A stretch of DNA of 28,586 nucleotides from a virus, in IMG/VR virus record IMGVR_UViG_3300028800_000625, positions 1 through 28,586 of that record, one strand, 5' to 3'. The notes below the pieces were generated by a model. The model had not been told where the DNA came from and did no database searches. It was given only the letters and a program-made list of their open reading frames with translations. The position numbers and the translations under genes are program-made. Shown here piece by piece: positions 1,525-6,888 of the stretch; positions within the stretch are counted from its first letter, which is position 1; every line of letters starts with the position of its first letter.

Positions 1525-1612
1525 TAACATGCTACGTTGTCTAAGTTACCGATAACACTAGTGAGCATCTATGCCGTTGATACTAAGTCCAGACCTAGAC
1601 TTGCGCTTAGGG

Positions 1613-1618
1613 TACAAT
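1613..1618 (+). promoter_or_regulatory. -10 box (TACAAT) six bases before the small terminase ATG
   Basis: TACAAT ends six bases before the ATG at 1625, so transcription would begin at or next to the start codon and give a leaderless mRNA. No clear -35 box lies at the usual distance, and the only Shine-Dalgarno-like bases (AGGG) sit too far upstream. The same arrangement recurs at 2132, 4410 and 11505. Confidence 0.45.
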
Positions 1619-1624
1619 TCAGCA

Positions 1625-2128
1625 ATGGCAAAAGTTGGCAGACCGAGCAGCTACGCCCCAGAGAGAGCAGAGATTGTCCTCCAGCGGATGTATACGGGCG
1701 AGAGCATACGCTCCATTTGCCGCTCACCTGGGATGCCTGAGTACGAGACTATCTCAACATGGCGTATCCGCAATCCTGATTTTGCCACACAGTACGCGCA
1801 CGCGAGACGGGCACAAGTTGAGGCAAGGATTGAGGATGCAACGGAAATGCTGCTCAAGACTCCGATGTGCAGCGTGCCTGATCCTGACGGCGGGGTGAGT
1901 GAGCGCGTAGACGGGGCGGCAGTGCAACTACTGCGTACTCGCGTTGACCTGGCCAAGTGGGAGGCAAGCAAGCTGCTGCGTGGGCTGCATACTGTTGACA
2001 ACAAACCCGCACCGCTGGATTACGGTGACAAGGTACAGACAGAGATCAGCGGGCCGGACGGTGGGCCTCTTGAGGTTAGTTTGGCTGCCAGCATCTCGCA
2101 GGCCCGGAAGCGTGTGGGGATTGAGTGA
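1625..2128 (+). CDS. terS: Terminase small subunit
   Basis: This 167-residue protein should recognise phage DNA at the packaging start site and recruit the large terminase. The N-terminus has the GRPSSY signature (residues 5-10), common in this small terminase type, followed by a helix-turn-helix region at about 16-53 with SIRSICRSPGMPEYETISTW. A helical oligomerisation segment rich in Arg, Ala and Glu follows (about 54-115), and the C-terminal 50 residues are less ordered. It lies two genes upstream of the large terminase, as expected. An in-frame ATG exists at 1571, but GRP close to the N-terminus and the TACAAT box just upstream favour 1625. The subunit call is firm; the leaderless start is inference. 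Confidence 0.88.
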   Translation: MAKVGRPSSYAPERAEIVLQRMYTGESIRSICRSPGMPEYETISTWRIRNPDFATQYAHARRAQVEARIEDATEMLLKTPMCSVPDPDGGVSERVDGAAVQLLRTRVDLAKWEASKLLRGLHTVDNKPAPLDYGDKVQTEISGPDGGPLEVSLAASISQARKRVGIE

Positions 2129-2131
2129 GTG

Positions 2132-2137
2132 TACTAT
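2132..2137 (+). promoter_or_regulatory. -10 box (TACTAT) six bases before the zinc-ribbon gene ATG
   Basis: GTGTACTAT lies in the 15-base gap after the small terminase stop. The TACTAT box ends six bases before the ATG at 2144. No Shine-Dalgarno precedes that ATG, so a leaderless transcript is plausible. No good -35 box is seen. Confidence 0.4.
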
Positions 2138-2143
2138 TAGTGC

Positions 2144-2386
2144 ATGAGCGTACTAATGGTGCAAGCGTGGCGATGTGACCGATGTGGGCACGTATGGCTC
2201 GCAGACTCCAAACCCAAGCGATGCGCCAAGTGCAAGAAGATCACGTGGGACAAGGATGGGGCGGTATCTCAGATGGCAGAGCCGTCGGTTGTGGTTGCGA
2301 AAGCCGATGAGAGGGTTGGTTCGAGTCCGGCCCGCTCCACTAAACCTAATCACGGCATCAACTGCCGGTGCTGGCAATGCAAATGA
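2144..2386 (+). CDS. Small zinc-ribbon protein with tRNA-derived middle segment
   Basis: This gene encodes 80 residues. Residues 11-30 hold a zinc-ribbon pattern, CDRC at 11-14 and CAKC at 27-30, followed by KKITWDKDG, a common layout for very small phage zinc-ribbon proteins. Residues 39-66 are the in-frame translation of a tRNA-like sequence (separate entry). The last residues are again Cys-rich (NCRCWQCK, cysteines 74, 76 and 79). The gene starts 15 bases after the small terminase and its TGA overlaps the large terminase ATG (ATGA, 2383-2386), so translation of the two is probably coupled. The role is unknown; position between the terminase subunits suggests nucleic-acid binding. An alternative start is the ATG at codon 5. 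Confidence 0.75.
   Translation: MSVLMVQAWRCDRCGHVWLADSKPKRCAKCKKITWDKDGAVSQMAEPSVVVAKADERVGSSPARSTKPNHGINCRCWQCK
2258..2339 (+). other. tRNA-like sequence inside the zinc-ribbon gene (possible tRNA pseudogene)
   Basis: A cloverleaf can be drawn over 82 bases. The acceptor stem GGGGCGG (2258-2264) pairs with CCGCTCC (2332-2338) over seven pairs including one G-T. The D arm reads TCTC/GAGC around AGATGGCA, with three of four pairs. The anticodon stem GTCGG (2284-2288) pairs with CCGAT (2304-2308). The T arm GTTGG/CCGGC encloses the canonical loop TTCGAGT (2320-2326), and the discriminator is A2339, with no CCA encoded. The oddity is the anticodon loop of 15 bases: TTGTGGT, which would be a normal GTG (His) loop, plus eight extra bases TGCGAAAG. 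It is more likely a degenerate or captured tRNA than a working one, and G-1/C73 expected for tRNA-His are absent. Confidence 0.5.
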
Positions 2387-3924
2387 GCGAGCAACTTCTC
2401 AGGACGGACATAGGGCGGTTCTGCCGCGATCCTTTAGGTTATGCGATGTATGCTTTCCCTTGGCAAGAGCAGGGGGAGCTTTCCGACTCATCCGGCCCGC
2501 GCCAGTGGCAGCGTGACGTGCTGGCGGAGATTGGCGCACACCTTCAGTCTGATACGTGGGCAACCCCGCTACAGCTTGCGATTGCATCTGGGCACGGCAT
2601 CGGCAAGACTGCGCTGATTGCGATGGCGTGCAAGTGGGCAGTTGATACCTGCGAGGATTGCCGCGTGGTGGTTACGGCAAACACAGAGAGTCAGCTACAG
2701 ACCAAGACCTGGCCGGAGGTTTGCAAGTGGTTTGGGATGTCGATAACAACTCACTGGTTCAACGTGGGCGCGACGACAATCAGCGTCAAGGACAAAGAGC
2801 ATGAGCGGCTGTGGCGCATCGACCGCATTGCGTGGTCTGAGAACAACACAGAGGCATTCGCTGGGCTGCACAACAGGGGCAAGCGCATCCTGGTCGTGTA
2901 CGATGAGGCTTCGGCAATCTCTGACAAGATTTGGGAGGTCACAGAGGGCGCACTGACTGACGAGAACACTGAAATCATTTGGCTGGCGTTCGGCAACCCT
3001 ACTAAGAACACGGGGCGATTTAGGGAATGCTTTGGACGGTACAAGCATCGCTGGACAACGCGGCACATCGACTCGCGTGGCATCGAAGGCACGAACAAAG
3101 AGCAGTTAGACAAGTGGGTTGCAGACTATGGAGAAGACTCCGATTTTGTTAGGGTTAGGGTCAAGGGAGAGTTCCCCCGCGCTGGGGGGAATCAGTTTAT
3201 CCCAGCTGATATTGTGTCTGCGGCCCGCAAACGCATGTTGCCGATTGAGACTTATGAGCGGATGCCAAAGATCATCTCGTGCGATGTAGCGCGGTTTGGT
3301 GACGACAGAACGATCATCGGACTGCGCCAGGGGTTGCGATGGCAGACTCTAGCAAAGCTGCGCGGCCAGGATGCAGTCAACGTGGCTGGTCACATCCAAG
3401 AGCAGATCGTGTTGCACAAAGCTCGCATGGTCGTGATAGACGGAGACGGCAACGGTGGGCCGGTCGTGGACATTCTGAGAAAGAACATGGTCGCATGGGT
3501 CAAGCAACCCGAACACCGGCTAGTGGAGTTTCATGGTGGCGCAAGACCTGCCGATCCTGATATGTATTTCAACCGGAGGGCTGAGGTTTGGGGGTTGATG
3601 AAGGGATGGCTGAATGGTGGGGGCGACATTCCCGACGATCCAGAACTTGAGATGGATTTGACCACGCCGGAGTACGGATTCAGCGGCAAGAACCAGATTC
3701 AGCTTGAGAAGAAGGACGACATGAAGAAGCGGGGGATGTCGTCGCCGGACGATGGAGACTGTTTGGCAATGTCGTTTGCGTTCAATGCGCCAGCGAAGAC
3801 GCACCGTGAAAAAGTGGAGGAGGAATTGGCGGCGACCCCTGATCCGATAGCGAACTACCTGATACAATTGCGGGAGCACGCAAGGCAGGAGAAGCAGGCT
3901 GACGGGGGAGAGTGGTGGACGTGA
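2383..3924 (+). CDS. terL: Terminase large subunit (ATPase-nuclease)
   Basis: This 513-residue protein is the packaging motor that pumps DNA through the portal and cuts concatemers. Walker A is GHGIGKT at residues 70-76, and Walker B is ILVVYDEA with Asp174-Glu175. The coupling-type segment IIWLAFGNPTK follows. The RNase H-like nuclease domain shows three acidic sites: Asp301 in ISCDVARFGDD, Asp353 in VVIDGDGNG, and Asp459 in DDGDCLAM. Length and motif order are normal for the family. I start it at the ATG at 2383, whose ATGA overlaps the preceding stop; ATG 2377 and GTG 2368 are alternatives. No clear Shine-Dalgarno is visible, so coupling to the zinc-ribbon gene is likely. All key residues appear intact. 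Confidence 0.95.
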   Translation: MSEQLLRTDIGRFCRDPLGYAMYAFPWQEQGELSDSSGPRQWQRDVLAEIGAHLQSDTWATPLQLAIASGHGIGKTALIAMACKWAVDTCEDCRVVVTANTESQLQTKTWPEVCKWFGMSITTHWFNVGATTISVKDKEHERLWRIDRIAWSENNTEAFAGLHNRGKRILVVYDEASAISDKIWEVTEGALTDENTEIIWLAFGNPTKNTGRFRECFGRYKHRWTTRHIDSRGIEGTNKEQLDKWVADYGEDSDFVRVRVKGEFPRAGGNQFIPADIVSAARKRMLPIETYERMPKIISCDVARFGDDRTIIGLRQGLRWQTLAKLRGQDAVNVAGHIQEQIVLHKARMVVIDGDGNGGPVVDILRKNMVAWVKQPEHRLVEFHGGARPADPDMYFNRRAEVWGLMKGWLNGGGDIPDDPELEMDLTTPEYGFSGKNQIQLEKKDDMKKRGMSSPDDGDCLAMSFAFNAPAKTHREKVEEELAATPDPIANYLIQLREHARQEKQADGGEWWT

Positions 3925-4422: not shown

Positions 4423-6888
4423 ATGGCCACTGAATCAACAGACGAGACGGAAGAAGTAGGCGAAGCGGTTGAACTCAAGCCGATGGATACGTCCAAACTT
4501 GAGCTAGGGCTGTACGCGCCGTTTGAGATGTCGCCAGAGGATATGTATGGCCCCGATGAACTGGGCGTCGATACTGTCACGGCGATACGCGAGATGATCG
4601 ACGGCGCAGGGAAGTATGAGGATGCTGCCCGTATCTGGGAAGTGATACAAGCGGCTGAGGCGCGGCTATTTGATCGTGGATACCAGTGGCTTACGAACGC
4701 GAAGTCTGGCGGATCGTGGGTGATTGCCGGGACGGGTGGCAATGCAGGACTGGGTGCAGGGGCAGTCACACAGCAAGATCGTGGGCGCATGTGGTCAATC
4801 AACATTTATGGCGCACGAAAGGACAAGATTGTCTCGGCTTTGACGGTGAAAGACCCGGAGCCTGAGTTCTTCCCGAAGCTGCCAGAGTCGGCGATTGACC
4901 AGCAATACTCGGAAGAGGCAGACCAGTATAAGCATCTGTGGAAGCAGGCGACGAACGTCCGCAAACTATGCGTGAAGGTTGGCGGGCTGTTCTATACCGA
5001 TGATCGCGTAGCATTGATTACCGAGACGATTGCCGATGCGCAGCGGTTCGACATGGACGGCAAGACGCCGGGGATGCAGGAAGTCACACGGGCATCCGGG
5101 AAGCTGGAGTTCCGAGTTCCGATGTCGATTGACGAGGATGAACCGCTACCGTGGTGCTGCCGGGAGCGGGAGATTGATCTGGCAACGTCGAAAGAGAAGT
5201 ATTCGTGGATTGCCAGTAAGATTTCAAGTGGTTCGGGCAATCATGGACAGATTTCGCGCACTTGCCGGTTGACGGTCAGGAATGCCGTCCAGAACCAGAC
5301 GGGATTCACGTCGAATGCGACTGATCGTGCGGTAACAGAGGTTACATGGTGGATTCGTCCATCGCAATACAACGACGTTGCCGATACTGAAGCCCACACG
5401 CTGAGGAATCAGCTACGCCAGATGTTCCCCGATGGAATGAGGATCGTTTTCTGTGGCGGGGAGTTTGCCTATTGCCGCAATGAGAAGATGGACGACTGCG
5501 TGATTATCCTGTACTCGCGCGAGGGAACTGGGCAGAACCGGCGAGCGATTGGGACGAACAATCTGACGACGCAGAAGGTTTTGAATTACGATTTCAACCT
5601 GTTCAATCGCTACATGACGGCTTGTGTTCCGCGCAAGATGCACGACGTTGAGAAGATCAGTTCCGAGGCTATTCAGCAGCAGCGCAATGACCCCGCGTAT
5701 TCGATGCCAGTCACACGCGACGCCGGGGAAGAAATCTCAAGCTATACGGGGACTGAGAACGTCCCGCAACCACCCGCGCAACTCATGGACTTCATTCAGC
5801 AGATGATTGATGGTCTACCAGAGGCTTTGGACGGCGCTAGTTCGTCTATGTTTGGGCAGTCCGAGGGGGTTCCGGGTGCAATTCCGGTTGGGACTATTAC
5901 AATCCAGCGTGACCAGGCATTGCAGGTGTTTGGTACTCCCTACAATGCAATGACGTGGGGAATCGCAATCTCCTGCGGAAACGCAGCGAAGTGGGCTGGC
6001 AAGAACCGCCAAGGGAAAGCGTCGGGCATGGTTCCGGGTGTTGGGCGCATCTCGGTTGACTTCTCGAAGATGGCCAGCGGCGATGCTTACTGTTTCCCAG
6101 AGGCGGACAGTGGATTCCCTGAGTCTGAGGCCGAGAAAGAATCTCGGTTGATGGATGCGGTAGAGAACTCAGCGAATGTTCCTGTTCTGGCACAGAGCTT
6201 GAACGACCCGATGAACTTCGAGGCATTGAATCGCGTAACGAAGCGGTTCGGAATCCTGATTTCTGGAACTGACTCGGTGCGAAAGCAGCAGGAAGAGTTT
6301 GAGTTGATTCTGAAACAGGCTCCAATCCCAAATCCCGCACTTGCGCAAGCGCAGATGGCTCTACAGCAGTCTCAGAACCACGCGGCGACCGATCCGCAAG
6401 CCCAGGCAGAGTCGCAGTCACCTGAAGGCCAGAACGCGATGCAGCAGGTACAGCAGGCCGTGGGTCAGATTCCCCCAACGGTTTGCTCTGTTCCGGTTGA
6501 GCAGGATGCCAGTGTTAACCATGCAATCGAAGCTGCAACCTGCTTCAACAAGATCAATTCGCCGGAAGGCCAGAAACTCAAGCGCGAGAAGCCTCCCATC
6601 TTCCAGAACCTGATGATGCACTGGCAGGGGCATACGCAGATGGCCCAGAAGTTGTCCGCGCCGCCTCCGATGCCAGAAGTGAAGCCGGGTGTGACGATGG
6701 CCGTTGACAAGCTCGGCCCGGTTGCTCAGGTTGCAGTGCTGGCAAAGGAATACGGCATCACAGTAGCGCCAGAGGACGTGCAGCCTACGCCAGATGTGCA
6801 TGAGATCGTGCAGGAGAAGGAAGGCGTTGACGGGCAGGGCGTTCCAACGAAACAGAAACTTTCATACTCAGGAAAGGCATTGGAATGA
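4423..6888 (+). CDS. Portal protein
   Basis: This 821-residue protein should form the dodecameric channel at one head vertex, through which DNA is packaged and to which the neck attaches. Evidence is position (directly after the terminase genes and before scaffold and capsid), length typical of large short-tailed-phage portals, and the mixed alpha/beta middle part with NIYGARKDKIVSALTVKDPEPEF near residue 125 onward. From about residue 640 the protein becomes helical and Gln/Ala/Pro-rich (ALAQAQMALQQSQNH and following), suggesting a long C-terminal barrel or a disordered extension. It ends in ATGA overlapping the next gene. The start has a TACGAT box seven bases upstream instead of a Shine-Dalgarno. 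The call rests mainly on context and overall similarity, not on a single motif. Confidence 0.85.
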   Translation: MATESTDETEEVGEAVELKPMDTSKLELGLYAPFEMSPEDMYGPDELGVDTVTAIREMIDGAGKYEDAARIWEVIQAAEARLFDRGYQWLTNAKSGGSWVIAGTGGNAGLGAGAVTQQDRGRMWSINIYGARKDKIVSALTVKDPEPEFFPKLPESAIDQQYSEEADQYKHLWKQATNVRKLCVKVGGLFYTDDRVALITETIADAQRFDMDGKTPGMQEVTRASGKLEFRVPMSIDEDEPLPWCCREREIDLATSKEKYSWIASKISSGSGNHGQISRTCRLTVRNAVQNQTGFTSNATDRAVTEVTWWIRPSQYNDVADTEAHTLRNQLRQMFPDGMRIVFCGGEFAYCRNEKMDDCVIILYSREGTGQNRRAIGTNNLTTQKVLNYDFNLFNRYMTACVPRKMHDVEKISSEAIQQQRNDPAYSMPVTRDAGEEISSYTGTENVPQPPAQLMDFIQQMIDGLPEALDGASSSMFGQSEGVPGAIPVGTITIQRDQALQVFGTPYNAMTWGIAISCGNAAKWAGKNRQGKASGMVPGVGRISVDFSKMASGDAYCFPEADSGFPESEAEKESRLMDAVENSANVPVLAQSLNDPMNFEALNRVTKRFGILISGTDSVRKQQEEFELILKQAPIPNPALAQAQMALQQSQNHAATDPQAQAESQSPEGQNAMQQVQQAVGQIPPTVCSVPVEQDASVNHAIEAATCFNKINSPEGQKLKREKPPIFQNLMMHWQGHTQMAQKLSAPPPMPEVKPGVTMAVDKLGPVAQVAVLAKEYGITVAPEDVQPTPDVHEIVQEKEGVDGQGVPTKQKLSYSGKALE

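Follow-up and report, generated by a model that had tools for sequence, protein, structure and literature searches.

In the viral record IMGVR_UViG_3300028800_000625 of IMG/VR, whose 28,586 bases were all analysed and are referred to here as the window, a zinc-ribbon gene of 80 codons (2144..2386; like all window features below, on the + strand) is located between terS and terL, the genes of the small and large terminase subunits, and contains a cloverleaf cassette resembling a transfer RNA (tRNA) in frame at codons 39-66 (2258..2339). The best overall explanation, to which we assign a probability of roughly 0.6, is that a whole tRNA, from position 1 to the CCA end, lies in frame inside the linker of a phage zinc protein; the dual-coding architecture as such is highly probable on the available sequences. 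The original prediction, which was made from the letters of the window, had described a cloverleaf at this place and had located residues 39-66 between an N-terminal zinc ribbon and a cysteine-bearing tail, and this in-frame nesting was confirmed.

The arms of the cloverleaf follow each other in the order that had been claimed: the acceptor stem (2258-2264/2332-2338), the D stem (2267-2270/2279-2282), the anticodon stem (2284-2288/2304-2308), which encloses a loop of 15 nucleotides, and the T stem (2315-2319/2327-2331) with the loop TTCGAGT, followed by A73 at 2339. In the window, 20 of the 21 stem pairs are formed, the sole exception being T10-C25, and the elbow bases are canonical (the TTCGAGT loop, G18G19 and A14). 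When exactly the same geometry is required, a geometry that was picked after 2258-2339 had been seen, the runner-up site in the window reaches 18 pairs. The Rfam tRNA model RF00005 spans 2258-2339 from end to end with 27.9 bits, which is below its gathering score of 29 (E-value 5.8e-4 for 300 nucleotides and 1.3e-5 for the genome). The proposed check with ARAGORN gave a divided answer: at default settings, no tRNA was called on the window element, and deletion of the eight extra bases of the anticodon loop yielded a full cloverleaf labelled His(gtg). When each gene was recoded synonymously 2000 times, default ARAGORN called a tRNA in 0-4 of the copies. Relaxed ARAGORN settings (ps75) are unspecific, matching between one quarter and three quarters of the recoded controls, and were not used as evidence.

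The scaffold is assigned to the tRNA-Ala rather than the tRNA-His type because it combines the pair G3-U70 with the discriminator base A73, a combination which specifies alanine identity. Both are found in the window and in the related contigs L070, L072, L076, L077 and L079, and the ends of the tRNA-Ala(tgc) of L103-L107 match the alanine signature of the cassette. The histidine anticodon GTG that had been read in the window is thus unsupported; the acceptor is of the alanine type, GTG is merely part of the 15-nucleotide loop (2289..2303), and L072 lacks U33. The accompanying view that the eight extra loop bases make an ordinary tRNA unlikely held up. The 15-nucleotide loop is retained in all compared relatives. 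This loop may contain an inner TTG/CGA helix (TCG/CGA in L072). Decoding calls for an anticodon loop of 7 nucleotides and U33; given the 15-nucleotide loop of the window, and with C at position 33 in L072, the window cassette is almost certainly non-decoding. An ordinary tRNA-His interrupted by an intron was considered and rejected, since the acceptor is alanine-type, the isotypes given by relaxed ARAGORN conflict and we know of no bacterial splicing route for an intron of 8 nucleotides.

The cassette of the window is also found in six more contigs (L070 and L072-L076). In L070 and L072, all 21 pairs are formed and the Rfam tRNA scores of 39.0 and 37.6 bits exceed the cut-off of 29. CCA is encoded in L072, in L076 and in the L077 family described below, and CTA stands at this site in L070 and in the window (2340..2342). 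Two side observations concern the same cassette. L075 (14086-14176) ends 6 bases upstream of it; the assembly may have broken at a variable junction there, or the genome may end. The last 22 bases of the window cassette recur exactly at 2069-2090 of L068 (3300021170_000011), a viral contig of 100 kb with 36 tRNA matches, in a region in which no full tRNA was called.

A search that used the tRNA ends first and the zinc-ribbon protein as bait afterwards led to 14 contigs of a second phage group with a homologous zinc gene, whose product is about 46% identical to that of the window. In both groups, the upstream terS belongs to phrog_1482 (28% identity), and the downstream TerL of the second group, which is visible in L071 and L110 only, has no blastp similarity to the window TerL. 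All 14 contigs carry a tRNA at the same codon, directly after the Trp-Asp at the end of the ribbon; this tRNA is Ala-like with a deviant loop in L077-L080, tRNA-Trp(CCA) in L081, L082, L108, L084 and L085, a Leu-like class II tRNA with a 6-nucleotide loop in L086 and L110, and tRNA-Met(CAU) in L091, L092 and L109. The Met, Trp and Ala-like cassettes score 58.1, 45.9 and 35.3 bits with the Rfam tRNA model. The cassette edges are exact, namely position 1 and CCA, and the group shares 85-99% identity in the ribbon DNA, compared with 49-68% between tRNAs of different type; the sequences upstream and downstream are often unrelated. As different tRNAs occupy one codon in different phages, the tRNA slot is, judging from these comparisons, an exchangeable cassette. 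L110 (contig 3300048823_000123) contains a second tRNA-like element (3136-3204 of L110, 6910-6978 of the contig, minus strand), which scores 27.8 bits and has a deviant anticodon arm; it is located some 3 kb upstream of the zinc gene, and no clear gene surrounds it.

Whole-tRNA swaps with exact edges could also arise if the cassette were an integration or recombination site, that is a phage attachment site (attP) or a shared patch for exchange, in which the tRNA types mirror host sites and the RNA is inert. The chimaeric cassette of L085, whose 3' end past GGTTCGA derives from another tRNA, fits such a patch, as does the single tRNA found in most contigs; tRNAs are classical prophage sites, and a prophage-encoded tRNA with a part in tandem integration has been described (PMC9934374). 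Several findings speak against this explanation, and we consider it unlikely. No Phage_integrase domain (PF00589) was found in the window and 11 related records, all of which may be fragments, and the zinc-ribbon bait retrieved no relatives among 84,980 genome representatives. The attP sites of phages usually contain one end of a tRNA, whereas here the whole cloverleaf is retained with a pair-preserving change. Furthermore, integration at a site between terS and terL would separate the packaging genes of the prophage, and a mere patch would not need to keep the reading frame.

The frame is kept in all five cassettes of the zinc gene, which differ in length; the Leu-like one fits via a lead that is 4 bases longer. 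For four independent cassettes, the chance that all are in frame is about one in a thousand, and cassettes out of frame would have been caught, as the N-terminal ribbon served as bait. In a control set, the 22 tRNAs of Caulobacter phage RB23, four combine the right length modulo 3 with an open frame and seven are open in the frame used here. Frame retention may have a second reason in the translational coupling inferred from the ATGA at 2383..2386, in which the stop codon of the zinc gene overlaps the terL start; this overlap is found in the window, L070, L072, L076 and L116.

The protein itself supports a continuous reading through the tRNA. The N-terminal zinc ribbon (CxxC ... CxxC, 2174..2233) is conserved in alignments; it has the cysteine pattern, a match to the rubredoxin-like Pfam family PF21349 with 19.8 bits (E-value 5.5e-4, below the cut-off of 26.5) and a weak match to the rubrerythrin fold (E-value 0.15). 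The C-terminal metal-binding motif HxxxCxCxxCK (2351..2383) is HGINCRCWQCK in the window and matches the HxxxCxCxxC of L116 and L097. Homologues without a tRNA (L097/L098, L111 and L116) encode the ribbon and another set of Cys/His residues in one continuous frame, joined by a linker that is short or unrelated, which indicates that the tRNA sits in the linker that separates two putative metal-binding modules. In an AlphaFold model of the window protein, whose overall confidence is low (mean predicted local distance difference test score, pLDDT, of 61), residues 41-66 form the stretch with pLDDT below 50 and the ribbon reaches about 80. In the L077 family, the ratio of non-synonymous to synonymous polymorphism (pN/pS) in the tail past the tRNA is 0.146 over all pairs, and by this measure the tail is under purifying selection. 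The Met, L081 and L108 genes have no in-frame ATG, GTG or TTG inside the tRNA, so that ribosomes starting at a usual codon would have to pass through the tRNA to arrive at the tail.

These data bear directly on the possibility that a plain phage tRNA overlaps an open frame by accident and that the zinc protein ends near the tRNA. Often, tRNAs are open frames, as in seven of the 22 controls, and short end overlaps exist, such as the 10 nucleotides shared by tRNA-Met and the HNH gene of Kuttervirus. An accident would, however, not account for five cassettes of different length that are all in frame, for a tail conserved as protein or for the similar C-terminal motif of the tRNA-less homologues; in addition, the anticodon arms of the window and L077 are unfit for decoding. 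This explanation is therefore regarded as quite improbable.

A comparison of the window with L072 separates the constraints on RNA and protein. The N-terminal ribbon shows 16 synonymous and 0 non-synonymous changes, the tRNA part 3 and 4, and TerL 124 and 11; the tRNA part differs from both (Fisher's test, p 0.004 against the ribbon and p 0.002 against TerL). Of the seven changes in the cassette, five affect unpaired bases, one turns a G-U into an A-U pair and one is the lost pair 10-25 of the window. This pair is T-A in L077 and L079 and G-C in L070 and L072, a compensated change between the two groups. Since the changes in the tRNA part do not follow protein selection, the segment is evidently maintained as RNA, and the protein tolerates it as a linker. 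The original prediction had named a conserved peptide with lost stems as its refutation; instead, the stems are kept while the peptide changes. Its proposal of a captured tRNA that became a linker on the sense strand, or of a dual tRNA-like RNA and mRNA, is well supported by the swaps, the tRNA-less homologues, the frame, the selection on the tail and the changes in the tRNA part, which are not those of a protein; its reading as His(GTG) is not supported.

Alternatively, the cassette might be a dead tRNA pseudogene that has lost its constraint as RNA and now serves as a protein linker only. The features of the window copy would suit such a pseudogene: 27.9 bits, T10-C25, CTA for CCA and a 15-nucleotide anticodon loop. 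For the family, however, a dead pseudogene is very improbable: the peptide changes while the stems stay (4 of the 7 changes are non-synonymous), relatives have full-scoring tRNAs at the same codon, and pair 10-25 covaries between the two groups. It is possible that the window copy alone is dead.

Several observations weigh against a functional in-frame tRNA and are gathered here. The window copy falls short of the Rfam cut-off, and both CCA and one pair of the D stem have been lost from it; compared with L072 it is slightly decayed, and the RNA may be decaying in the window phage. Single-strand folding of the element gives a z-score of only -1.46, and the bare element has its energy minimum in a fold other than the cloverleaf, which counts mildly against a dominant unmodified cloverleaf. 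L085, which has A73 and a mismatched acceptor, and the Met type, whose acceptor contains two mismatches, are imperfect as charged tRNAs. The C-terminal cysteines are absent in the L072 relatives, hence the tail is not needed in all phages, and most of the cassette is deleted in L007/L014, which are the same contig. Recombination could partly explain why the synonymous rate of the tRNA part is low, though not the ratio of synonymous to non-synonymous changes. Finally, few of the sequences are independent: the 21 contigs, most of which are short fragments, contain about 5 distinct cassettes. Regarding the deletion, the ribbon of L007 (5001-5102) is fused to the 3' acceptor strand of the tRNA at a microhomology of 2 bases, other sequence has replaced the upstream part and terL is intact; the zinc gene looks dispensable in this contig.

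Deviant anticodon loops of 15, 9 or 6 nucleotides are present in three of the five cassettes, and these are the Ala- and Leu-like ones only; the Trp and Met cassettes have normal loops. The synthetases for alanine and leucine ignore the anticodon, whereas those for tryptophan and methionine read it. Deviant loops are hence confined to types whose synthetase ignores the anticodon, which suggests that recognition or charging matters more than decoding, with the limits that four isotypes only are represented and that two cases are imperfect. For the in-frame tRNA, a tentative mechanism with two fates of the transcript can be proposed, which we consider possible without favouring it. In the first, straight-through translation would produce a zinc protein whose tRNA-encoded linker is disordered, and would deliver ribosomes to the overlapping terL start. 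In the second, the cloverleaf would fold and be taken by host tRNA enzymes, namely RNase P, EF-Tu or a synthetase such as the alanyl-tRNA synthetase, and its release would cut the message between terS and terL. Of the features bearing on recognition by RNase P, the window has the acceptor and T stems, and its CCA is changed to CTA. A tRNA mimic acting on the mRNA, as had been suggested, is plausible. It is tempting to speculate that the interchangeable slot releases a chargeable, non-decoding mimic from the terminase message and that folding or excision switches TerL translation on or off, which appears doubtful at present; cassettes would then keep what a synthetase needs and not always what decoding needs.

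With phage tRNA genes (RF00005), the cassettes share the cloverleaf, a CCA encoded in most members and, in the Trp and Met types, normal loops; they differ in being wholly nested in frame in a protein gene, in the absence of a tRNA cluster and in the three deviant loops among five. Transfer-messenger RNA (tmRNA) likewise has an alanine-type acceptor with G3-U70, and the window-type cassettes have no usable anticodon. With the tmRNA model RF00023 (cut-off 47 bits), however, no match was reported for the window and the best score, that of L077, was 26.4 bits; neither a tag reading frame nor pseudoknots nor an SmpB element were seen, and the location is in frame within an mRNA. tRNA-like structures in viral and cellular mRNAs are similar in that a tRNA mimic, a proposed RNase P substrate, lies within a message; they are mostly known from RNA viruses and eukaryotes (PMC5723415) and are distant mimics, whereas a true tRNA scaffold is swapped between isotypes here. 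In Kuttervirus, the tRNA and the coding sequence also share bases of the same strand, but only at the gene end, in contrast to the complete nesting seen here, where the tRNA has coding sequence before and after it. A search of the open-access literature gave no report of an exchangeable phage tRNA nested in frame. The zinc gene would be a clear example from nature of a single DNA strand that is a full tRNA and at once encodes an expressed part of a protein, with a replaceable isotype. It raises the testable questions whether phage tRNAs are kept for decoding or because host tRNA enzymes bind them, and whether a tRNA fold within a message can control a terminase operon. Furthermore, default tRNA finders can miss such elements, and gene finders call them plain coding sequence.

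The zinc gene is flanked by terS (1571..2128; phrog_1482, E-value 6.4e-29), whose true start is perhaps at 1625, and by an epsilon15-like terL (2383..3924; phrog_2, phrog_5902), whose product is about 50% identical to the TerL of Uetakevirus and Purivirus. In these epsilon15-like isolates, which are relatives by TerL, terS abuts or overlaps terL and the zinc gene is absent between them; isolate phiv142-3 has a tRNA-Arg after terL. Isolates and plasmids gave no relatives of the zinc protein, and the exact pattern of 5' and 3' tRNA ends did not turn up in genomes. At the same position in the distant TerL relatives L015-L044, neither a zinc ribbon fitting the motif nor a convincing tRNA was found. 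An operator-like repeat, GTACTATTAGTGC ... GTACTAATGGTGC (2131..2161), is read directly in the window, where it abuts and overlaps the start of the zinc gene. Palindrome-like repeats also abut this start in L077 (860-896), L097 (1050-1086) and L116 (740-819), and over the window and these contigs together they differ by group: TGTACC..GGTACA with the centre CATATATG or CAACGTTG, GGACAC..GTGTCC, and GTACTA..TAGTGC. Palindromes of differing sequence at the same start suggest an autoregulatory operator or a packaging site. Zinc-ribbon genes upstream of terL seem to be common in these phages; L122, a phage contig of 65.8 kb with an L110-like TerL, contains two of them in tandem upstream of terL (5698-6327), both without a tRNA.
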